NCBI RefSeq assembly: GCF_001514065.1
Contig: NZ_KQ948423.1
Coordinates: 248,001 to 312,000 of the forward strand
DNA length: 64,000 nt
Source of the DNA: Streptomyces antibioticus
GTDB taxonomy: Bacteria > Actinomycetota > Actinomycetes > Streptomycetales > Streptomycetaceae
Reading direction: 5' to 3'
The stretch's first letter is position 1; each line of letters starts with the position of its first letter. Under the pieces are notes generated by a model that worked only from the letters and a program-made list of their open reading frames with translations, had not been told where the DNA came from and made no database searches. A program made the translations under genes and the position numbers. Below are positions 3,054-16,354 of the stretch, piece after piece.

Positions 3054-3117
3054 AAGGGGCGCGTTGTCGTGTGCGGGTCCGATGTGGCCGGTCGCGCAGT
3101 TCCCCGCGCCCCTTAGC
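3054..3117. repeat. Dispersed palindromic repeat, copy A (terminator-like)
   Basis: The core GTCGCGCAGTTCCCCGCG (3091-3108) belongs to a repeat also found at 5623-5744, with related forms near 8711 and 39753. Here AAGGGGCGCG (3054-3063) pairs with CGCGCCCCTT (3105-3114), making a hairpin between two convergent genes that could stop transcription of both. Confidence 0.65.
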
Positions 3118-3122
3118 GGCAT

Positions 3123-3929
3123 CTACTGCCGCGTTGCTTTCAAGAACTCCCGCAGAATGCGCTCCCCGGCCAGTACGCCCCTCTCAGGCAGCGCCGTGAT
3201 CGTCGGCGCTGCCCACTCCGCCTCCGCCAGCTCTCCATGCCCCGGCCGCCAGCCCCGGTCCGCGGCCAGCAGCAGATCCGCGTCCAAGAGGGAGTCGCCG
3301 GCCGCCAGCGTCAGCTCCGCTCCCGTCCTGCGCGCCACCTCCCGCATCGCCGCGCTCTTCGTCAGCGGCTTCGGGACGGCGTAGATCTTGCGGCCCTGGA
3401 GGGAGACCGTCCAGCCGCGGTTCTCCGCCCACACCGCGAGCTCCTTCACCCATTCCTCGGGCAGCAGCTCGCGCTCGACGACGAGGTAGGCGAAGAGGTC
3501 CTCGGCGACCCGGTGCTTGCGCACCCACACGGGGTCGGCGGTGCGCAGCAGATGCTCGCGCACCTCGTCCAGCGGCGCACACTCGTCGGCCAGCCGCCCC
3601 TGGACGCGGGCGTGCCAGTCGGCGTCCGTGACGCCGTCCACCAGCAGATGGCCGCCGTTGGCGCAGATGGCGTATGTGGGCGCCGGGCCCGGCAGGTTGA
3701 TGCGCTGGTACTGCTTGCGGGTCCGGGTCGTCGTCGGCACGAACACCGCCGCGTCACCGAGGTCGCCCAGCAGTCCGGCCGCCGTCTCCGTCATGTACGA
3801 CAGCGGCTTGCTCTCGTGCACCTCGACGCAGAGCAGCCGCGGCGCCCGCGCGTCCGGCATGGTCAGCGCGAGGGCCGCCGAGGAGTAGATGAGCGTACGG
3901 TCGAGGTCGCTCGCCACCAGCACCGGCAT
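3123..3929 (-). CDS. HAD-superfamily hydrolase of the Ter-linked operon
   Basis: A 268-residue cytosolic HAD-fold enzyme. Motif I is DLDRTL at residues 8-13, with Asp8 and Asp10 as nucleophile and acid/base. A later AAGDSLLDADLL segment fits motif IV, the acidic Mg-binding residues. The start codon overlaps the stop of the upstream fusion gene by one base (TGATG), so the two are translationally coupled. HAD phosphatases of this kind are part of the biosynthetic module that accompanies Ter proteins (PRTase, TRSP, StiP, CitE-like lyase), where a dephosphorylation step of a nucleotide-like product has been predicted. The substrate is unknown. Confidence 0.8.
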   Translation of the reverse strand: MPVLVASDLDRTLIYSSAALALTMPDARAPRLLCVEVHESKPLSYMTETAAGLLGDLGDAAVFVPTTTRTRKQYQRINLPGPAPTYAICANGGHLLVDGVTDADWHARVQGRLADECAPLDEVREHLLRTADPVWVRKHRVAEDLFAYLVVERELLPEEWVKELAVWAENRGWTVSLQGRKIYAVPKPLTKSAAMREVARRTGAELTLAAGDSLLDADLLLAADRGWRPGHGELAEAEWAAPTITALPERGVLAGERILREFLKATRQ

Positions 3930-6511
3930 CAGACCGCCACCGCCTTGCCGTCGGCACCGGTCGCGCCCCGCGTGTACTTGGGGTGGATCAACCCCACGCA
4001 GGTGTACGGCAGTTCGGCCACCTCTTCCACCGGTACGCCTCTCTGCTCGGCCAACAGCCGTACATGGTCGAGGTCGGCGCCCGCACCGGCCTTCGCGAGG
4101 ATCTTCCAGGGCACGCGGCGCAGCAGCACCCGGGTGGTCTCGCCGACGCCGGGCTTGACGAGGTTCACGTCGTGGATGCCGTACTCCTCACTGATGCGTT
4201 CGACCGCCGCCCAGCCTTCCCAAGTGGGCTCGCGGTCACCGGACATCAGCTCCTTGACCTGCTGCTCCACCGCGTCCACGACCTCCGGGAAGGTGGCGGA
4301 CACCGCGTCCAGGAAGTCCACGGAGACATCGGCGCCGGCGAGTTCGCGGTAGAACTTCGCGCCGTGGAAGTCGTCCGGGCCGACCAGGTCCGCGCGCAGG
4401 ACGGTGCGGGAGATCAGCCCGGAGACGGTGGAGTTGAGGCAGGCGGAGGGGATGAGGAAGTCCTCGCGGGTGCCGTACGTCTTCACGCACGAGCCCGGGT
4501 CGGCGAGGACCGCGATCTCCGGGTCGAAGCCGGTGGCGCCGCCCGCCGCCTCGAACTCCTTGACAGCGTCCGCGAGTTCACGGGTGATGGCACCCTTGCC
4601 GGTCCAGCCGTCGACGAAGACGACATCGGCCGGGTCGTGGTGGGCGGCCAGCCAGCGCAGCGCGTTGGCGTCGATGCCGCGGCCGCGGACGATCGAGACG
4701 GCGTAGTGGGGCAGGTCGAGGCCGTGCCGGAACTGGGCCCAGCGGCGCATCAGGACGCCGACGGGAGTTCCGGCGCGGGCGAGCGAGACGAGGACGGGCC
4801 GGGGCGAGCGCTCTTCGAGCACGATCTCCGTGACGGCACCCACGGCCTGCGCGAGCCGCGCCGCGGACGCGTCCAGGGCGGTGTGGAAGAGCTGCTGGTA
4901 CTGCTCGCTGGGCTGGTACTCCACCGGCAGCGACTCCGCGTAGTGCGCGCCGCCGCTCTGGATGGCCTCCTCGCGCTCCTCGGTCGGCGCCTCCAGCGTC
5001 ACGTCCGACAGGTCCTGGAGCAGCCAGCCGACCTCGTCGGGGGCGTACGAGGAGAAGGCGGGGCCGCGGAGGGGCTCGGGGAGCATGGAGGGCCTTTCGG
5101 GGACGTACGACGGGACGACCGCGAGCAGTATGTGCGGGGCGGTGTCGGCCAGCTGCGCCAACAGGCCGTCGGGGGCGTGCAGTTCGGGGGTGTCGGCGGT
5201 GGAGTCGACGACGGCGACCACGACGTCGAATCCGGCGCCGGCGATGTTGTACGCGTAGCGGTCGCCGGGGCCGTCGGCCGGAGTGTCATGGGCCGGGAAG
5301 ACGATGCGGCTGCGTATCGCGTAGCCGGGGTCGTCGACGGCCAGGACGGGTGAGCGGGTGGTGGTGGAGTAGGTGACCTCGGCGCCTCCCGCGACCTGCT
5401 CCAGCTCGCGGGCGAGCCGCAAGGGCGCGTACATCAGCTCTTCGAAGCCGAGTATGTGGATGCGGGTGGCGTCCGCCGGGATGGCGTCTGCGAGCCGGGC
5501 GGTCATTTCAGGGAGGGCGGCTTCGAGGCGGGCCCGGTGGGCCGGGGTGAAGCCGTGACGTCCGCCGTCGGGGAGGCCGGGGGGCCAGTGGAGGTCGATG
5601 CGGTTGAGTGTCGACTGCGGGCCGGTGGGGGCTGGTCGCGCAGTTCCCCGCGCCCCCAGGGGACTGGTCCGACCGTCGGTTTCCAGGCTCGCGGCACCAG
5701 CATCGCCCTCAAGGGGCGCGGGGAACTGCGCGACCGGCCACGACGAACCCGCAGACGACCGACCATCTCCCGCGGCAGTCTCTCCCTCGTACCGCGCCAC
5801 CAACGCCTGCCCCTTCTCCAGCACCCCCTCCGGCAGCCGCACCGTCCCCGAAGCCGCCGCCACCAGGTCCACCCGCGCGCCTATCTCCCGCGCGAACTGC
5901 TCCAGTCGCCCCGCGTCCGCCTCCGACCTCATGTCGACCAGGGCCACGACCACGTACCGGCCCCGCGGATACCGCTCGTGCAGGTCCCTGATCGTGTTCA
6001 GGACCGTGTTGCCCGTCGAGAACTCGTCGTCGACCAGCACCAGGGGGCCGTCACCGGCCAGCAGCCCCGCGTCCTCCGGCAGCAGCAGATGGGACGTCGC
6101 GTGGGAGTGGGACTCCTCGAAGCCGCCCGCCGGGGCGACCCCGGCGACCGGGCGGCGCGTCGAGTGGAGGTAGGGGGCGAGGCCCAGGCCGTCGGCGACC
6201 GAGTGGCCGAGGCCGGTCGCGGTCTCCGCGTAGCCGAGGACGACCGCGGTGGCCGCCTCCTCGCCGAGGAGGTCGCGCACCCTGCGGCCGAGGACGAAGC
6301 CATGGCTGTACACCACCGTCGGCGACTGCGGTACGTGCTTGCCGAGCACGTGGGAGACGAGGAGGTGGGCCCGCTTGGGGTTGCGGCGCAGGGCCAGGCC
6401 GAGGAGGTCGGTCAGACCCTCGTCGCCGACGAGTTCGACCCCGAGGCGCTCGGCGACCCAGGTGCCGGACCAGATGGTGTCCGGCACCCTGCTGTTCACT
6501 GCGTTGTTCAT
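3929..6511 (-). CDS. PRTase-TRSP-StiP-PELOTA fusion protein of the Ter module
   Basis: An 860-residue multidomain cytosolic protein. Residues about 20-240 form a phosphoribosyltransferase-type domain with a PRPP loop at 157-169 (LVLVDDEFSTGNT). About 318-470 match the TRSP domain; about 485-775 match the StiP domain, which itself has a PRPP-loop-like stretch at 629-640 (DVVFVDGWTGKG). About 795-845 resemble the PELOTA RNA-binding domain. In many genomes the first two and last two domains are separate genes; here they are fused. Residues 256-297 are a low-complexity linker encoded by an inserted repeat. It lies 20 bp after the CitE-like gene and overlaps the HAD gene. The expected role is making or attaching a ribosyl or nucleoside-like metabolite in Ter stress responses. 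No member's exact reaction is known to me. Confidence 0.85.
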   Translation of the reverse strand: MNNAVNSRVPDTIWSGTWVAERLGVELVGDEGLTDLLGLALRRNPKRAHLLVSHVLGKHVPQSPTVVYSHGFVLGRRVRDLLGEEAATAVVLGYAETATGLGHSVADGLGLAPYLHSTRRPVAGVAPAGGFEESHSHATSHLLLPEDAGLLAGDGPLVLVDDEFSTGNTVLNTIRDLHERYPRGRYVVVALVDMRSEADAGRLEQFAREIGARVDLVAAASGTVRLPEGVLEKGQALVARYEGETAAGDGRSSAGSSWPVAQFPAPLEGDAGAASLETDGRTSPLGARGTARPAPTGPQSTLNRIDLHWPPGLPDGGRHGFTPAHRARLEAALPEMTARLADAIPADATRIHILGFEELMYAPLRLARELEQVAGGAEVTYSTTTRSPVLAVDDPGYAIRSRIVFPAHDTPADGPGDRYAYNIAGAGFDVVVAVVDSTADTPELHAPDGLLAQLADTAPHILLAVVPSYVPERPSMLPEPLRGPAFSSYAPDEVGWLLQDLSDVTLEAPTEEREEAIQSGGAHYAESLPVEYQPSEQYQQLFHTALDASAARLAQAVGAVTEIVLEERSPRPVLVSLARAGTPVGVLMRRWAQFRHGLDLPHYAVSIVRGRGIDANALRWLAAHHDPADVVFVDGWTGKGAITRELADAVKEFEAAGGATGFDPEIAVLADPGSCVKTYGTREDFLIPSACLNSTVSGLISRTVLRADLVGPDDFHGAKFYRELAGADVSVDFLDAVSATFPEVVDAVEQQVKELMSGDREPTWEGWAAVERISEEYGIHDVNLVKPGVGETTRVLLRRVPWKILAKAGAGADLDHVRLLAEQRGVPVEEVAELPYTCVGLIHPKYTRGATGADGKAVAV
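5623..5744. repeat. Palindromic repeat pair inserted in frame in the Ter fusion gene
   Basis: Two copies of the dispersed repeat face each other: copy B at 5623-5656 and inverted copy B' at about 5710-5744, sharing GTCGCGCAGTTCCCCGCG on opposite strands, with about 53 bp between. The whole unit keeps the reading frame of the minus-strand gene. It encodes residues 256-297, including the tell-tale peptides PVAQFPAPL and GARGTARPAP. It falls exactly at the linker between the phosphoribosyltransferase and TRSP domains. Confidence 0.8.
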
Positions 6512-6531
6512 GCGTCCCTTGAATCGGAGCT

Positions 6532-7698
6532 TCAGCCGGGTATACCGGCGGCGAGCAGGTCGACGAAGCTGACGTCCTCGTTGGCGACGCCGAAGACCTC
6601 CGCGCGCAGCATGGTCCGCTCGGCCCAGGCGCGGTGCGGCTTCACCTCGTTCATCTTGTTCGTGTACTGCGAGCGCAGGACGCCTCCGCCGCCTCGCTCG
6701 GGCCGCAGGATGTCGGCCGCGTCGCTGTACTCCTCGTGACTGACGACGGACAGCGCGTGCACCGCCGGCACGTGGGAGGGGTGGATGCAGGTCTTGCCCA
6801 GCAGGCCGTTGGCGTGGTCGAGGGAGATCTCCCGCAGCAGCCCGTCCATGGCGTGCTCTATCAGTTTCTCGCGCAGTTCCACGGCCTGCCCCTCCAGGAA
6901 GGGGCTGGTCCGCAGCAACGGCTTGAACATGCGCTCGGGGACGCGGAAGTACTCCCAGACGGGGCCGGTCACGGTGAACCCGGTGCCGTCGGCGCGGCCC
7001 AGCATGTTGACCACGTCGGCGATCACGGAGGCGACGATCTGGACGTCGTAGGCCGTCATGTCGGGGGCTCTGCGCAGGCCGTACGAGGAGCAGAAGTCGG
7101 TGACGCCGAGGCGCAGGGCGAGGACGCGGTCGCGGTACTTGTCGACGGCGCGGGCGATGCCCTCCAGGGCGTCGACGCGCGACTCGCGGTACATCAGCTC
7201 GGGCGTCTCCAGGACGGGCATGCCGAAGAGGCGGCGGCCGCTCGCGTGCTCGGCGGCGGCGAGGGCCTCCAGGAAGGGGATGCCGCGCTCCTCGGTGAAC
7301 TTGGGGAACACGAACCCGGACAGCAGCCGGACCGTCCCGCCGAGGCGCTGGACGAGGTCGGGAATCTGCTCGGGGGTGCGGACCCGGATGAAGAGCAGGG
7401 GCGGCTCGACGTCCTCGCGGGCGGCGAGGTCGGCGAACTGCCGGACCAGGTTCTCCTCACCCGCGGCGACGTCCTCGTCACCGATGGAGTCCTCCAGGCA
7501 CAGCACCATCGAGACCACGCCGCGACCGGTCTGTTTGACGATGTCGTCGGCCAGCCGGGACCGGGTGGCCGGGCTGTACAGCGTGGCGCCCAGGGCCGCG
7601 GAGAGCAGCCGGGCCGGCGAGTCCGCGTCGAACGCGCAGGGCTCGCGATGGAAGAGGCGCTGTCGCACCCCAGGGGCGATGTGCCCGAAATGACGCAT
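6532..7698 (-). CDS. HpcH/HpaI-CitE-like aldolase/lyase of the Ter module
   Basis: I chose ATG 7698 (MRHFGHIAPGV), which has a GGGGGAG ribosome-binding site, giving 388 residues; upstream in-frame starts lack one. The protein is a TIM-barrel of the HpcH/HpaI aldolase/citrate lyase beta-like superfamily. Acidic segments such as VLCLEDSIGDE and the late THPSHV-like stretch CIHPSHVP fit that family's metal and CoA/oxaloacetate site. It is the first gene of a three-gene operon with the PRTase-TRSP-StiP fusion (20 bp downstream) and the HAD gene. CitE-like lyases are a recognised member of the Ter-associated metabolite module. The likely chemistry is C-C bond formation or cleavage on a small acid; the substrate is unknown. 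Confidence 0.8.
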   Translation of the reverse strand: MRHFGHIAPGVRQRLFHREPCAFDADSPARLLSAALGATLYSPATRSRLADDIVKQTGRGVVSMVLCLEDSIGDEDVAAGEENLVRQFADLAAREDVEPPLLFIRVRTPEQIPDLVQRLGGTVRLLSGFVFPKFTEERGIPFLEALAAAEHASGRRLFGMPVLETPELMYRESRVDALEGIARAVDKYRDRVLALRLGVTDFCSSYGLRRAPDMTAYDVQIVASVIADVVNMLGRADGTGFTVTGPVWEYFRVPERMFKPLLRTSPFLEGQAVELREKLIEHAMDGLLREISLDHANGLLGKTCIHPSHVPAVHALSVVSHEEYSDAADILRPERGGGGVLRSQYTNKMNEVKPHRAWAERTMLRAEVFGVANEDVSFVDLLAAGIPG

Positions 7699-7895: not shown

Positions 7896-8696
7896 ATGAC
7901 GCACGCCATGCTGAAGGGGTCGAACGTCCCGCTGGATGTCACCACGGTGCGCGCCGTGGTGCGCTGGACGCCCGGGCAGGGGGTCCCGGATGTCGACGCC
8001 TCGGCGCTGCTCCTCGGCCCCGACGGCCGCGTACGTTCCGACGAGGACTTTGTCTTCTACAACCAGCCCCGGCACCCCTCCGGGAAGGTGTGGCGGCTCG
8101 GCAAGAAGCGGGTCGCCGAGGGCCTCACCGACACGATCCAGACAGATCTCTCCGGTGTCGAGCCCGGCGTCGGCCAGATTCTGCTGGTCGCATCGGCGGA
8201 CGGCGTCACGTTCGACACCGTACGCGCGCTGCGCATCCTGCTGTACGACGCCTCGGTCGCCGACGGTGAGCCGCTGGCCTACTTCGACATCAAGCCGGAG
8301 ACCGGCCGCGAGACGGCCCTGATCTGCGGGGAGCTGTACCGCCGCGGGGAGGGCTGGAAGTTCCGCGCCCTGGGCGAGGGCTACTCGGACGGTCTGAAGG
8401 GCCTGGCCAGCGATTTCGGCATCTCGGTGGACGACTCGGAGGCCGCGGAGGAGCCGGCGCCGGCCCCGGAGGCCTCCCAGCCCCTCCCCCCGGAACAGCC
8501 GACCGCGGTCCCCCAGCAGCCGTCCTACGGCTACCCGCAGACCCCTCCGGCGACCCAGCCGGCGTACGGCTACCCCCAGCCGACCAGCCAGCCGGCGTAC
8601 GGCTACCCGCAGCCGCCGGTCCCGGTACCGGCGGGCGCGACGCTGGACCCGGATTTCCGGCTGCCTCCCCAAGGCCCACAATTCATCGGGCGCTAG
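7896..8696 (+). CDS. TerD-family protein with proline-rich tail
   Basis: A 266-residue protein transcribed divergently from the Ter biosynthetic operon. Residues 1-185 are a TerD domain: DVDASALLL (calcium-binding acidic motif), DEDFVFYNQ, and the late [19 protein letters not shown] signature. The tail from about 186 is Pro/Gln/Ala-rich with three copies of a YGYPQ motif ([21 protein letters not shown]), a flexible surface-type linker. Canonical TerD proteins are about 190 residues, so the tail is an extension. TerD proteins bind Ca2+ and act in tellurite/stress phenotypes, development and membrane-linked complexes. The start ATG 7896 follows GGCAGGATG. Sharing a 197-bp divergent promoter region with the operon suggests joint control. 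Confidence 0.85.
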
Positions 8697-8738: not shown

Positions 8739-9476
8739 TCACCGCTCCGCCTTGGTCTTGTAACCCCGCCCCCACTGAAGCCCCCACCCGTACAACCGAT
8801 CCAGCTCCGCCTGGAACCCGTACACGAACTTCACCTCGCGCCGGACGATGATCTCCCCCTTCACGTTCTCGATCATCACCACCGCACACGACCGCGCCTG
8901 AGGATGCCGCTCGTCGAGGCCTATCTCGATCCGCGGCCCGTTGCTCGGATACAGCGTGACGCTCGCGTGGGTCCGGTCGAAGGCCGGCGTCTGGTCGTAG
9001 ATGTAGACGAACACCAGGATCCGCTTGATGGAGTCCCGGTGGTCGAGGTTGACGTAGACCGTCTCGCCGGACGCCGACCCGAACCGGTCGTCGCCGCTGA
9101 GCTTGACGTACGGCGGTGAGTTGACGTCCCCGAAGAGGCCGCCGAGGGGTTGTACGACGCCCTTGGAGCCGTCCGTCAGCTCGTACAGGCACCCCAGGTC
9201 GAGGTCGACGTTGACCATGCTCTGGCTGTGGCCCATGACCTCCGGCGGCTTGAGCGCCCGGAAGGGGTGCCGCAGCAGCGACTCCCGCTGGTTGCCGCCG
9301 ATGTCGGACGTCCGCATCCGCCAGGCGAGGTTGATGCGCAGATGCCCGGTCTCCGCGCCCTGCTTGGTCAGGGACACCCGGTCGTGCCGTTTGGTCAGCT
9401 CGATCGCGTTGCTCGCCGCGCTGCCCGAGTCGAACTCGACCGCGCGTCCGGGCCAGAGTCCGTCCAAGAAACCCAT
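8739..9476 (-). CDS. TerD/TerA-like tellurium-resistance-type protein
   Basis: ATG 9476 (MGFLDGLWPG) is chosen because a GGTGGGGG ribosome-binding site precedes it, giving 245 residues. The first 50 residues form a separate small N-terminal segment. The rest reads as a divergent TerD-type beta-sandwich: VNVDLDLGCLYEL (acidic Ca-binding loop), then SGETVYVNLDHRDSIKRILVFVYIY and VMIENVKGEIIVRREVKFVYGF. These are typical of TerA/TerD-like proteins that differ from canonical TerD. It stands between a convergent TerD gene and DUF475, inside the Ter locus. A role in the same membrane-associated complex is inference. Confidence 0.75.
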   Translation of the reverse strand: MGFLDGLWPGRAVEFDSGSAASNAIELTKRHDRVSLTKQGAETGHLRINLAWRMRTSDIGGNQRESLLRHPFRALKPPEVMGHSQSMVNVDLDLGCLYELTDGSKGVVQPLGGLFGDVNSPPYVKLSGDDRFGSASGETVYVNLDHRDSIKRILVFVYIYDQTPAFDRTHASVTLYPSNGPRIEIGLDERHPQARSCAVVMIENVKGEIIVRREVKFVYGFQAELDRLYGWGLQWGRGYKTKAER

Positions 9477-9592
9477 TACCGCCCCCACCTCACCGGCCGC
9501 TTCACTGCCGGCCTCATTGTCAAACACCGACGGGGCGGCGTCGAGGAGTCACCTCGATGCCGCCCCGCTCAGAGCATTCCCGCAGAGCGGTG

Positions 9593-10738
9593 TCACACCC
9601 CTGACGAGACCTCAGTCTTCTCGTCCGAGCCCGCGTTTCCCTCGGCCGCCGCGAGTGCCTTGTTGCGGCGTACGGAGGACCAGAAGGACCAGGCGATGAG
9701 GACGACGCCGACGAGGCCGGTGATGACCTCGTTGATCTCGTACTGGATGGTGACCATGAGGATCACGGCCAGCGCGCCGATCGCGTAGTGCGCGCCGTGC
9801 TCCAGGTAGACGTAGTCGTCGAGGGTGCCCTGGCGGACCAGGTAGACCGTCAGCGACCGGACGTACATGGCGCCGATGCCGAGGCCGAGGGCCATCAGGA
9901 CGATGTCGTTGGTGATGGCGAAGGCGCCGATGACACCGTCGAAGGAGAAGGACGCGTCGAGGACCTCGAGGTAGAGGAACATGAAGAACGCGGCCTGGCC
10001 GGCGAGGACGACGGCGGGCTTCTTCTTGCCCGTGCGCGCGGCCTCTTCCTCCTCCTCGTGCTCCCGCTCCTCCTCTTCCTCGAGTTTGTCCTCGAAGTAG
10101 CCGGAGAGTCCGCCGACGACCATGTACGTGATCAGACCGGCGATGCCGGAGATCAGGACGGTCTGTGCCTTGTCGACATGGGCGCCGCCGTGCTGGTGGG
10201 CGTGGGTGGCGAAGGTGAAGGCGGTGATGAGCAGGACGATCAGCGCGATGCAGACCGACAGCATGTCGACCTTGCCGAGCTTGGCGAGCGGGCGCTCGAT
10301 CCAGCGCAGCCACTGAATGTCCCGGTCCTCGAAGATGAAGTCGAGGAAGATCATCAGCAGGAACATGCCACCGAACGCGGCGATCGCCGGGTGGGCGTCG
10401 GTGACGAGTTCCTGGTACCGGTCCTTGTTGTTGAGCGCGAGGTCGACGGCCTCGATCGGACCCATGCTCGCGCTGATCGCGACGATGACGACCGGGAACA
10501 CCAGCCGCATGCCGAAGACCGCGATGAGCACACCGACGGTGAGGAAGATCTTCTGCCAGAAGGCATTCATCTTCTTCAGGATCCCGGCGTTGACCACCGC
10601 GTTGTCGAAGGACAGCGAGATCTCCAGGATCGAGAGGATCGCCACGATGCCGAAGGCCTCCCACCCCCCGTAGAAGACCGCCGCGACGAGGCCGAGCACG
10701 GTGATCGCGAACGACCAACCGAAGGTTTTCAGAACCAC
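9593..10738 (-). CDS. DUF475/TerC-superfamily integral membrane protein
   Basis: A 381-residue polytopic membrane protein starting at GTG 10738, with about 9-10 hydrophobic helices. Two internally related motifs, SLSFDNAVVNA (about residue 42) and SFSFDGVIGAF (about residue 262), carry the buried Asp residues typical of the TerC/DUF475 family. A cytoplasmic loop near residue 220 is extremely acidic (EEEEEREHEEEEE), and a His-rich loop (HAHQHGG) precedes it; both could bind metal. TerC-type proteins work with TerD in metal-ion and stress phenotypes. It is flanked by TerD-like genes on the same strand. Confidence 0.85.
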   Translation of the reverse strand: MVLKTFGWSFAITVLGLVAAVFYGGWEAFGIVAILSILEISLSFDNAVVNAGILKKMNAFWQKIFLTVGVLIAVFGMRLVFPVVIVAISASMGPIEAVDLALNNKDRYQELVTDAHPAIAAFGGMFLLMIFLDFIFEDRDIQWLRWIERPLAKLGKVDMLSVCIALIVLLITAFTFATHAHQHGGAHVDKAQTVLISGIAGLITYMVVGGLSGYFEDKLEEEEEREHEEEEEAARTGKKKPAVVLAGQAAFFMFLYLEVLDASFSFDGVIGAFAITNDIVLMALGLGIGAMYVRSLTVYLVRQGTLDDYVYLEHGAHYAIGALAVILMVTIQYEINEVITGLVGVVLIAWSFWSSVRRNKALAAAEGNAGSDEKTEVSSGV

Positions 10739-10863: not shown

Positions 10864-11439
10864 TTATGAGACGTTGACCCCGAAGTCCAGGGCGATACCG
10901 CGCAGACCGGACGCGTACCCCTGTCCGACGGCCCGGAACTTCCACTCGCCGCCGTAGCGGTAGACCTCGCCGAAGATCATCGCGGTCTCGGTGGAGGCGT
11001 CCTCGGAGAGGTCGTAGCGGGCGAGTTCCTGGCCGTCGGCCTGGTTCACGACGCGAATGAAGGCGTTGCTGACCTGGCCGAAGGTCTGGCCGCGCTCGTC
11101 GGCCATGTGGATCGAGACCGGGAAGACGATCTTGTCGCACTGGGCCGGCACCTTGGAGAGGTCGATCAGGATCGACTCGTCGTCGCCGTCGCCCTCACCG
11201 GTGAGGTTGTCGCCGGTGTGCTCCACAGAGCCGTCCGGGCTCTTGAGCTGGTTGTAGAAGATGAACCACTCGTCACCCATGACCCGCCCCCCGGCGCACA
11301 GCAGCGCGCTGGCGTCGAGGTCGAAGTCGGCTCCGGTGGTGGAGCGTGCGTCCCAGCCGAGACCGACCATCACCTGGGTGAGGTTGGGTGCGGCCTTGGA
11401 CAGGGAGACGTTGCCCCCCTTGGCGAGCGTGACGCCCAT
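10864..11439 (-). CDS. terD: TerD-family calcium-binding stress protein
   Basis: A canonical-length TerD (191 residues) starting [15 protein letters not shown]. The Ca2+-binding acidic loops are visible: [10 protein letters not shown] and GDGDDESI with the downstream ENR/DER segment. The C-terminal [20 protein letters not shown] is a TerD signature. A GGGGAGGA ribosome-binding site precedes ATG 11439. It is paralogous to the next gene downstream on the map (11570-12145), with long identical runs, so this is a tandem gene duplication common to streptomycetes. The protein is cytosolic or membrane-peripheral. TerD proteins have been linked to tellurite resistance and differentiation in Streptomyces. 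Confidence 0.93.
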
Positions 11440-11569: not shown

Positions 11570-12145
11570 TCAGACGTTGACTCCGAAGTCCTGCGCGATG
11601 CCGCGCAGGCCCGAGGCGTAGCCCTGGCCGATGGCGCGGAACTTCCACTCCGCGCCGTGCCGGTACAGCTCGCCGAAGACCATGGCGGTCTCGGTGGAGG
11701 CGTCCTCGGAGAGGTCGTAGCGGGCGATCTCCGCCTCGCCCGCCTGGTTCACGACGCGGATGAACGCGTTGCGGACCTGGCCGAAGGACTGCTGGCGGTT
11801 CTCGGCGTCGTAGATCGAGACCGGGAACACGATCTTCTCGATGTCGGCCGGGACGGCCGCGAGGTTGACCTTGATCTGCTCGTCGTCGCCCTCGCCCTCA
11901 CCGGTGATGTTGTCGCCGGTGTGCTCGACGGAGCCGTCGGGGCTCTTGAGGTTGTTGAAGAAGACGAAGTTGGCGTCGCTGCTGACCTTGCCCGAGCTGT
12001 TCAGCAGCAGCGCGCTGGCGTCGAGGTCGAAGTCCGTGCCGGTCGTGGTGCGGACGTCCCACCCCAGACCGACGATGACCGCGGTCAGGCCGGGGGCCTC
12101 CTTGGTCAGCGATACGTTGCCGCCCTTGCTGAGGCTGACTCCCAC
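11570..12145 (-). CDS. terD: TerD-family calcium-binding stress protein (paralogue)
   Basis: A second canonical TerD of 191 residues ([19 protein letters not shown]) starting at GTG 12145 behind GGAGGA. It shares the [10 protein letters not shown] and [10 protein letters not shown] calcium loops and the [20 protein letters not shown] end with its neighbour. The 130-bp gap between the two genes is enough for a separate promoter, so they need not be one transcript. Small differences in the acidic loop and mid-domain suggest they have diverged in metal affinity or partner rather than being redundant, but that is inference. Confidence 0.93.
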
Positions 12146-13621: not shown

Positions 13622-16354
13622 GTGGCTTCCGGATCCGATCGCAACCCGATCATCATTGGCGGCCTTCCGAGTCAGGTTCCTGACTTCGATCCCGAGGAAA
13701 CCCAGGAGTGGCTCGACTCCCTCGACGCCGCCGTCGACGAGCGCGGCCGGGAGCGGGCCCGCTATCTGATGCTGCGGCTGATCGAGCGGGCCCGCGAGAA
13801 GCGCGTGGCCGTGCCCGAGATGCGCAGCACGGACTACGTCAACACGATCGCCACCAAGGACGAGCCGTTCTTCCCCGGCAACGAGGAGATCGAGCGCAAG
13901 ATCCTCAACGCGACCCGCTGGAACGCCGCGGTGATGGTGTCCAGGGCCCAGCGGCCCGGCATCGGCGTCGGCGGCCACATCGCCACGTTCGCCTCCTCGG
14001 CCTCGCTGTACGACGTGGGCTTCAACCACTTCTTCCGCGGCAAGGACGAGGGCGACGGCGGCGACCAGGTCTTCTTCCAGGGCCACGCCTCCCCGGGCAT
14101 CTACGCCCGCGCGTACCTGCTGGACCGCCTCAGCGAGCAGAACCTCGACGCGTTCCGCCAGGAGAAGTCCAAGGCTCCGTACGGTCTGTCGAGCTACCCT
14201 CACCCGCGCCTCATGCCGGACTTCTGGGAGTTCCCGACCGTGTCCATGGGCCTCGGCCCGATCGGCGCGATCTACCAGGCGCGGATGAACCGGTACATGC
14301 ACGCGCGCGGGATCGCCGACACGTCGAAGTCGCATGTGTGGGCGTTCCTCGGGGACGGCGAGATGGACGAGCCGGAGTCGCTCGGCCAGCTGACCATCGC
14401 CGCCCGTGAGGGCCTGGACAACCTGACCTTCGTCGTCAACTGCAACCTCCAGCGCCTGGACGGGCCGGTGCGCGGCAACGGCAAGGTCATCCAGGAGCTG
14501 GAGTCCGTCTTCCGCGGCGCCGGCTGGAACGTCATCAAGCTGGTCTGGGACCGCTCCTGGGACCCGCTGCTGGCCCGGGACCGCGACGGGGTGCTGGTCA
14601 ACCGGATGAACACCACTCCGGACGGCCAGTACCAGACGTACGCCACCGAGTCCGGCGCGTACATCCGCGAGCACTTCTTCGGGGACGACCACCGGCTGCG
14701 CGCGATGGTCGAGAACATGACCGACGACCAGATCCTGCACCTGGGCCGCGGCGGTCACGACCACAAGAAGATCTTCGCGGCGTTCGCGGCGGCCAAGGCG
14801 CACAAGGGCCAGCCGACGGTGATCCTCGCCAAGACGGTCAAGGGCTGGACGCTGGGCCCGAACTTCGAGGGCCGCAACGCGACGCACCAGATGAAGAAGC
14901 TGACGGTCGACGACCTCAAGGGCTTCCGCGACCGGCTGCACCTGCCGATCTCCGACAAGGAGCTGGAGTCCGGCGCGCCGCCGTACTTCCACCCGGGCCG
15001 GGACTCGGAGGAGATCCAGTACATGCACGACCGCCGCAAGGGACTCGGCGGTTACGTCCCCACGCGCGTGGTGCGCGCCAAGCCGCTCGCGCTGCCGGAC
15101 GACAAGACGTACGCGACGGTGAAGAAGGGTTCGGGTCATCAGTCCATCGCGACGACGATGGCCTTTGTCCGGCTCCTCAAGGACCTCATGCGGGACAAGG
15201 AGCTCGGCAAGCGGTTCGTGCTGATCGCGCCGGACGAGTACCGCACGTTCGGCATGGACTCGTTCTTCCCGAGTGCGAAGATCTACAACCCGCTGGGCCA
15301 GCAGTACGAGTCGGTGGACCGCGATCTGCTGCTCGCGTACAAGGAGTCGCCGACCGGCCAGATGCTGCACGACGGCATCTCGGAGGCGGGCTGCACGGCC
15401 TCGCTGATCGCGGCGGGCTCGGCGTACGCGACGCACGGCGAGCCCCTGATCCCGGTCTATGTCTTCTACTCGATGTTCGGTTTCCAGCGCACCGGCGACC
15501 AGTTCTGGCAGATGTCCGACCAGTTGGCGCGCGGTTTCGTGCTGGGTGCGACCGCGGGTCGTACGACGCTGACCGGTGAGGGTCTGCAGCACGCGGACGG
15601 CCACTCGCAGCTGCTGGCTTCCACCAACCCCGGCTGTGTGGCGTACGACCCGGCGTACGGGTTCGAGATCGCGCACATCGTGCAGGACGGTCTGCGCCGG
15701 ATGTACGGCCCCGAGGCCGAGGACGTCTTCTACTACCTCACCGTCTACAACGAGCCGATCCAGCACCCGGCCGAGCCGGAGAACGTGGACGTCGAGGGCA
15801 TCCTCAAGGGCATCCACCGCTACAGCGAGGGCACTTCGGGCTCCGTCCCGGCGCAGATCCTCGCGTCCGGTGTCGCGGTGCCGTGGGCTATCGAGGCGCA
15901 GAAGATCCTCGCCGAGGAGTGGAACGTCAAGGCGGACGTCTGGTCGGCGACCTCCTGGAACGAGCTGCGGCGCGAGGCGGTCGACGTCGAGCGGCACAAC
16001 CTGCTGCACCCCGAGGAGGAGCAGCGGGTGCCGTACGTGACGCGGAAGCTGTCGGGTGCGCAGGGGCCGTTCGTGGCCGTGTCCGACTGGATGCGGGCGG
16101 TGCCGGACCAGATCGCTCGGTGGGTGCCGGGCACGTACCAGTCGCTGGGCGCGGACGGGTTCGGCTTCGCGGACACCCGTGGCGCGGCCCGGCGCTTCTT
16201 CCACATCGACGCGCAGTCGATCGTGGTGGGCGTGCTGACGGAGCTGGCGAAGGAGGGCAAGGTCGACCGCTCGGCGCTGAAGCAGGCGATCGACCGCTAC
16301 CAGCTCCTGGACGTGGCGGCGGCCGATCCGGGCGCGGCGGGCGGCGACGCGTAG
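13622..16354 (+). CDS. aceE: Pyruvate dehydrogenase E1 component, homodimeric type
   Basis: A 910-residue thiamine diphosphate enzyme that decarboxylates pyruvate and acetylates the E2 lipoyl domain, feeding acetyl-CoA to the TCA cycle and fatty-acid synthesis. The TPP/Mg motif is GDGEMDE (about residue 245) through VVNCN about 30 residues later. The N-terminal [16 protein letters not shown] and the [20 protein letters not shown] stretch are typical of the homodimeric AceE family rather than the alpha/beta type. Length matches the family (about 890-915). The start is GTG 13622 with AAGGAA upstream. It is transcribed alone; E2 and E3 are not in the window. Confidence 0.96.

Follow-up and report, generated by a model that had tools for sequence, protein, structure and literature searches.

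Does the Ter-linked operon of Streptomyces antibioticus that carries an 860 aa fusion protein represent an undescribed system, and what might its enzymes make? Both questions arise from an initial annotation of the window analysed here, a 64,000 nt stretch of contig NZ_KQ948423.1, made from the sequence alone. We find a commonplace stress operon, conserved widely in Streptomyces, that unites in one protein enzymes found apart elsewhere; its chemistry has already been guessed at in print, as a prediction only. To this the present analysis adds a survey of fusion and fission, the absence of an ATP-grasp gene, doubt over the name of the StiP domain, a structural link for the HAD protein and a repeat lying in frame within the fusion gene.

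Organisation of the operon

Three genes on the reverse strand were proposed to be coupled: a CitE-like C-C lyase of 388 aa (6532..7698; C-C_Bond_Lyase PF15617, E 4.4e-123), the 860 aa fusion (3929..6511), composed of PRTase_2, a linker, TRSP, StiP and PELOTA_1 as delimited by Pfam, and a HAD-type phosphatase of 268 aa (3123..3929). The fusion starts 20 bases past the lyase stop, and its own stop codon has one base in common with the HAD start (TGATG, 3931 down to 3927), a pattern expected of co-transcribed genes and in keeping with the proposed coupling.

Divergent from the lyase gene is a TerD-domain protein with a Pro/Gln-rich tail (7896..8696, forward strand; TerD E 1.4e-42). Inspection by eye showed this tail, which lies outside the TerD domain, to be long, Pro/Gln/Tyr-rich and repeat-bearing. 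There follow, all on the reverse strand, a diverged TerD-like protein (8739..9527), a DUF475/TerC-like membrane protein (9593..10738; DUF475 E 2.9e-140, TerC E 4.3e-20) and two TerD proteins (10864..11439 and 11570..12145; E 8.2e-84 and 7.5e-89). The adjoining DUF475 gene is therefore as originally described; of the four TerD-type genes counted alongside it, three stand, but the match of the 8739..9527 protein is weak (E 0.0035, 17.3 bits) and falls under the cut-off of 25.3. Defence-system models had no match among five of the proteins, and NCBIfam models matched just one of eight, the DUF475 protein. The locus combines PRTase_2 with TRSP, StiP with PELOTA_1, a PF15617 lyase, a HAD protein of the ter family and linkage to TerD and TerC genes, the features by which a Ter module is recognised, and it holds the one PRTase_2 match in the S. 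antibioticus genome.

A predicted route to a nucleoside-like compound

We consider there to be about an even chance that this is a chromosomal Ter stress module of Streptomyces, in which the lyase, the fusion and the HAD protein make a nucleoside-like compound that is bound by TerD proteins. In this explanation, what has been observed is which genes are present, how widely the genus conserves them, and that two halves are fused. When the cell meets metal or envelope stress, the CitE-like lyase would supply or trim a small acid building block, and the PRTase_2-TRSP half of the fusion would join a base-like group to ribose-5-phosphate taken from PRPP. The StiP-PELOTA half, which may be a uracil-PRTase-like enzyme, would then act on the resulting intermediate in a second step, PELOTA helping to keep an RNA or a nucleotide in place, before the HAD protein takes off the phosphate. 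The nucleoside-like product would be bound by the TerD proteins, which adjoin the DUF475/TerC-like membrane protein, a putative handler of metal. Fusion would fix the two halves at a 1:1 ratio, and may allow the intermediate to pass between them.

The domains and their neighbours, the genus-wide presence of TRSP, the detection of PF00156 in five of six PRTase_2 relatives and the invariant residues of the lyase and HAD proteins are all consistent with such a route. Counting against it, the literature examined yielded no product, substrate or assay for the pathway, and the solved relative of the HAD protein is named a trehalose phosphatase, hence a nucleoside is not required. TRSP was also missing from eight of 101 family genomes, none of six StiP sequences matched a PRTase family, and the operon lacks an ATP-grasp gene. 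If the prediction holds, an operon found in nearly all the sampled Streptomyces makes a compound that has no name in the literature examined, and a Streptomyces laboratory strain probably offers a single-copy chromosomal module in which to search for it.

The lyase and HAD enzymes

A profile of the lyase matched the citrate lyase beta structure PDB 1sgj (E 1.9e-10), and residues E164 and D201, which we take to be metal ligands, are invariant in six lyase relatives. The HAD gene had no match in Pfam at E 0.001. Nevertheless its identification as a HAD phosphatase proved sound: the single sequence matches PDB 6d3v/6cj0 (phmmer E 6.9e-11), a profile of six relatives, S. antibioticus included, does so at E 6.9e-99, and the motif residues D8, D10, T12, T67, K191, D212 and D216 are invariant in the six sequences.

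These structures, from Pseudomonas, are named trehalose phosphatase, which raises the alternative that the HAD protein and its partners act on trehalose-6-phosphate or a similar sugar phosphate, making this a sugar-phosphate stress operon rather than a nucleoside pathway. The family membership just described is one point in its favour. Another is that the HAD protein of a P. aeruginosa plasmid ter locus is near-identical to the 6cj0/6d3v protein (E 2.6e-160), such that a solved structure already exists for one step of the module. TPP activity was assayed for an extrachromosomal enzyme of P. aeruginosa (PMC6838324); if, as we infer, this enzyme is the 6cj0/6d3v protein, an assayed relative for the HAD step probably exists as well. 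The literature examined contained no statement linking a ter-locus HAD protein to the solved trehalose phosphatase. However, the annotation of the five plasmid or phage stretches compared includes no trehalose-phosphate synthase, and the module has two parts of PRTase or PRTase-like character. Furthermore, promiscuity in vitro is common among HAD sugar phosphatases. We regard a sugar-phosphate role as unlikely. The Streptomyces protein shares the family and the motifs of the P. aeruginosa trehalose phosphatase (PDB 6cj0, 6d3v and 6d3w), but is only about 29% identical to the plasmid HAD protein that nearly matches those structures.

Domains of the fusion protein and their putative functions

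An HMM search placed all four Pfam domains in the order first proposed, each far over its cut-off: PRTase_2 at residues 36-222 (5846..6406, reverse strand, as for all four; E 5.5e-67), TRSP at 315-453 (5153..5569; E 9.6e-38), StiP at 487-737 (4301..5053; E 7.5e-107) and the L7Ae-like PELOTA_1 at 764-843 (3983..4222; E 8.2e-35). Two PRPP-loop-like motifs lie in this chain, at residues 157-169 (LVLVDDEFSTGNT) and 629-640 (DVVFVDGWTGKG). The first is a canonical PRPP loop within PRTase_2, the loop itself spanning D161-T169. Five of six PRTase_2 relatives matched Pribosyltran PF00156 in searches at E up to 10 (best 3.5e-06), although the S. antibioticus protein alone reached only E 0.027 and 14.2 bits, under the 26.3 cut-off. 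As the positive control in profile comparison, PRTase_2 against the PF00156 set scored 30.6, the highest of 14 comparisons. PRTase_2, with its type I features, is thus the sole part of the fusion that sequence comparison supports as a phosphoribosyltransferase.

In the case of TRSP, the best of seven profile matches was to the N-terminal half of PRTase_2, a weak one with a probability of 15%, and comparison with the general PRTase sets gave no match; there is a hint only that TRSP may be a decayed duplicate of PRTase_2.

The PELOTA_1 profile bears a weak likeness to the RNA-binding protein L7Ae of archaea (best E 0.0073), with 35 distinct PDB sequences, mostly L7Ae/eL8, matched at E up to 1. 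StiP and PELOTA_1 occurred together in all six diverse members scanned. These two observations lend something to the idea that the StiP-PELOTA half acts on RNA, PELOTA bringing a tRNA or rRNA on which StiP exchanges or adds a ribosyl-linked base. Yet the likeness to L7Ae is weak, and Rfam models gave a single sub-threshold match between positions 2800 and 13000, inside the lyase gene; such a role is improbable, about as much so as action on a sugar phosphate. The initial annotation had gone further in suggesting an RNA-guided module, which overreaches, as the PELOTA_1 likeness would at most mean RNA binding; no guide was found, and this candidate was rejected.

As to StiP itself, the second motif differs from the first loop in being two residues shorter and having one acidic residue (DGWTGKG). 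None of six StiP sequences matched a PRTase family in Pfam at E up to 10. The StiP profile does align co-linearly with UPRTase, the invariant RAG at 579-581 and D634-G640 falling on the UPRTase RAG and loop, but the score of 23.1 is not above those of the unrelated pairs StiP-HAD (23.5) and StiP-TRSP (23.7); further unrelated controls (HAD, lyase, TerD and PELOTA) scored from 10.8 to 21.1, and comparison of StiP with PRTase_2 was weak. Hence, of the two PRPP loops read in one chain, the first stands and the second is a candidate only, and the sequential ribosyl transfers suggested from it are unproven, given the deviant loop and the lack of a match between StiP and any PRTase family. Searches of a viral collection contributed three StiP and two PRTase_2 loci, used as divergent rows. 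Across 27 sequences, StiP has 39 invariant residues, including RAG 579-581, D634, W636 and G638-G640, a set with a nucleotide- or PRPP-handling look. That StiP is instead a protease, with the second half of the fusion cutting a protein under stress, is very unlikely: only the family name, in Pfam and in plasmid annotations, suggests it, none of the 39 invariant positions is a cysteine (the best such column has 23 of 27), the residues just named look suited to nucleotides or PRPP, and no title or abstract among the full-text literature matches listed concerns the function of StiP. The name 'cysteine protease' is therefore not supported by conservation.

Distribution of the module and of the fusion

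TRSP was detected in 193 of 199 genus genomes, the six exceptions being assemblies of 550-1420 contigs, and in 93 of 101 family genomes, where the eight exceptions include several assemblies with few contigs. StiP was found in 69 of 296 genomes of the class (68 over the cut-off) and PELOTA_1 in 16 of 296 genomes of the phylum (12 over the cut-off). Gene neighbourhoods were compared in the best 80 of 589 confirmed relatives, all of them Streptomyces, the closest having StiP-PELOTA parts up to 98% identical to that of S. antibioticus. Within this set, the fusion forms one open frame at 72 loci; five others are cut by contig ends, and in three PRTase_2 and StiP lie in different frames. The HAD gene is a neighbour in all 80, the lyase in 74 and DUF475 in 68, each locus without the lyase or DUF475 being cut upstream by a contig end, and gene order was constant across the named loci examined. 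Neither misplaced domains nor a fusion in unrelated contexts was encountered: the fusion keeps its setting throughout these 80 loci. Given this constancy and the spread of TRSP across the genus, the fusion appears to be a near-universal Streptomyces gene.

Beyond this set, 32 loci drawn from the family and the class, some from genomes already counted above, comprised 21 with fused halves, ten with the halves in different frames and one with a stop between them. All nine loci from the genus of the window were fused; other genera vary, and one has both states. At the five plasmid or phage loci compared, the halves are split. The unfused enzyme set adjoins TerD and TerC/DUF475 genes on the Tsukamurella, Klebsiella and Pseudomonas plasmids; in Acinetobacter phage ME3, a TerD-like gene is accompanied by the two PRTase-type genes and one for a HAD protein, and a stretch of a Rhizobium plasmid has these three enzyme genes with no annotated Ter genes. 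Since relatives keep the halves separate, the fusion would seem to be an optional convenience rather than a new activity. Relatives of the module enzymes were found on 2567 plasmid records, mostly enterobacterial.

In the viral collection, one contig (L168) has lyase, PRTase_2, TRSP and StiP-PELOTA matches together and unfused, its StiP being 46% identical to that of S. antibioticus; TerD and DUF475 queries had no match at this locus.

The notion of an undescribed system was accordingly rejected, with TRSP at this frequency in the genus and the same enzymes, unfused, at plasmid and phage loci; the enzyme set has moreover been discussed in print (PMC7824862, PMC8115787).

A dispersed repeat within the fusion gene

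Overlooked in the earlier reading was a repeat inside the fusion gene. Two inverted copies of a dispersed repeat (5610..5759, by alignment of the arms) code for most of the linker between PRTase_2 and TRSP, being read in frame as residues 251-301 or thereabouts. Its 18-base cores, at 5638-5655 on the forward strand and 5714-5731 on the reverse, are exact copies, and a third exact core lies 11 bases past the HAD stop (3094..3111, forward strand). The genome contains 110 exact copies, 55 per strand, and none of the reversed control sequence. In the window there are four matches at up to three mismatches, one of them at 15851, a number reached by none of 100 shuffles. The RNA of 5605-5765 is predicted to fold with -111.9 kcal/mol (z -6.9). 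The core was present in 53 of 101 genus genomes, in up to 754 copies, and inspection of sampled copies by eye shows a common unit of ~45 bases, found singly or as inverted pairs (pairs in L063-L066). With many copies, some in inverted pairs, this is a REP-like dispersed palindrome.

Of the 80 loci, 13 were set aside because they were cut or broken or no start was detected, which left 68 named fusion genes with S. antibioticus included; 15 of these, again including S. antibioticus, contain the core at two or fewer mismatches. All 25 cores in these genes lie in the linker, 13 forward in phase 0 and 12 reverse in phase 1, with none for the reversed control. Stop codons do not force this constancy, as 24 or 25 of 25 sampled repeat units are open in each frame and sense; the S. 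antibioticus pair itself is open in two of three frames. At the 67 relatives' loci, 23 cores fall within 170 kb of fusion gene, as against 20 in the 921 kb elsewhere, ten of the latter within 150 bases after the HAD stop. Labelling the tree by the core gave nine changes, at least four forced by well-supported branches, and the 15 core-bearing genes all lie in one 49-row part of the midpoint-rooted tree. The repeat may hence have entered once, long ago, and since been lost from some genes, or it may have entered several times; in the case of one early entry, no function would be needed to account for the constant frame. A further 74 fusion frames, a set not independent of the 68 genes (the S. 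antibioticus genome and one other recur), had the core in 14 cases; a single case with a different frame points to more than one entry or to a frame shift.

Among the plasmid matches listed for the repeat, 15 in all, 12 were recorded outside annotated genes (though one of these records also proved to be unannotated), one lacked annotation and two were at a gene edge.

Six of the 67 named relatives (L098, L094, L096, L100, L154 and L129) carry in the linker another sequence that is repeat-like and related (GARGCVESAATAAWARPAP in translation); a search of the 67 loci, allowing up to 12 mismatches in 57 bases, detected it nowhere but in the fusion gene.

We tentatively propose, at somewhat less than even likelihood, that a palindromic Streptomyces repeat entered this stress gene and was kept as a protein linker, leaving a strong hairpin in the coding region of the mRNA. 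Dispersed palindromic repeats are known as REP elements and as Rickettsia palindromic elements, the latter occurring in frame within protein genes; the Streptomyces repeat is like both in being dispersed and palindromic and like the Rickettsia elements in its position, but sequence and host differ in each case. If the proposal is correct, Streptomyces would have its own equivalent of protein-coding palindromic elements, for which the Ter fusion gene would repeatedly serve as a landing site, and the hairpin would perhaps slow the ribosome between two folded halves. The repeat in this gene in any event offers a modest, testable instance of repeat DNA turned protein. The literature text searched contained neither a 15-letter piece of the core nor the reverse complement of that piece, nor was any paper on the Streptomyces repeat apparent by title or abstract among the matches listed. 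In the part of one related paper seen, stable palindromes in 3' regions and E. coli REPs are discussed, and not the linker repeat (PMC4681348).

Comparison with known Ter systems

A Ter biosynthetic module of the plasmid ter loci of Klebsiella and Pseudomonas was reportedly described by Anantharaman, Iyer and Aravind in 2012, and the fusion may already appear in that paper or in the 2018 P. aeruginosa TPP paper. The link made at the outset to a nucleoside-like Ter metabolite does have a precedent, itself a prediction: the PRTases and HAD protein of Ter systems are predicted to make a nucleoside- or nucleotide-derived signal that TerB/TerD might sense (PMC7824862), and a nucleoside-like metabolite is attributed to these systems (PMC8115787).

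As in Streptomyces, the Klebsiella and Pseudomonas plasmid loci have the C-C lyase, PRTase_2-TRSP, StiP-PELOTA and HAD proteins beside TerD and TerC. However, at those loci the PRTase-type proteins come from two unfused genes that flank the one for the HAD protein, and the gene set includes an ATP-grasp that the Streptomyces operon lacks. A search for ATP-grasp PF15632 had no match on the contig of the window; the domain is annotated in two of the five plasmid or phage loci compared, hence it is not universal in the Ter module. The one strong ATPgrasp_Ter match in the genome (L226:5988-7118) has as neighbours the genes of a fucosidase, a mannosidase and a carbohydrate-binding protein that weakly matches GH18. 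It is accessory: at E 1e-60 it was detected in 19 of 61 genus genomes, and one of these copies is just 37% identical. Without an ATP-grasp, the Streptomyces pathway cannot be identical to that of Klebsiella and Pseudomonas; the module would be shorter, or would borrow another enzyme.

At a P. aeruginosa plasmid ter locus (L086:8699-9835), a TerD-like segment was seen to be fused to a trypsin-like protease domain.

The plasmid of Tsukamurella tyrosinosolvens (NZ_LR134456) has a similar gene order to the Streptomyces operon, with DUF475 present and no ATP-grasp annotated, although the protein after DUF475 has no similarity to that at 8739-9527 in the window. Here, unlike in Streptomyces, PRTase_2-TRSP and StiP-PELOTA are the products of two genes, which overlap by four bases, such that the loss of this one boundary would yield the fused form.
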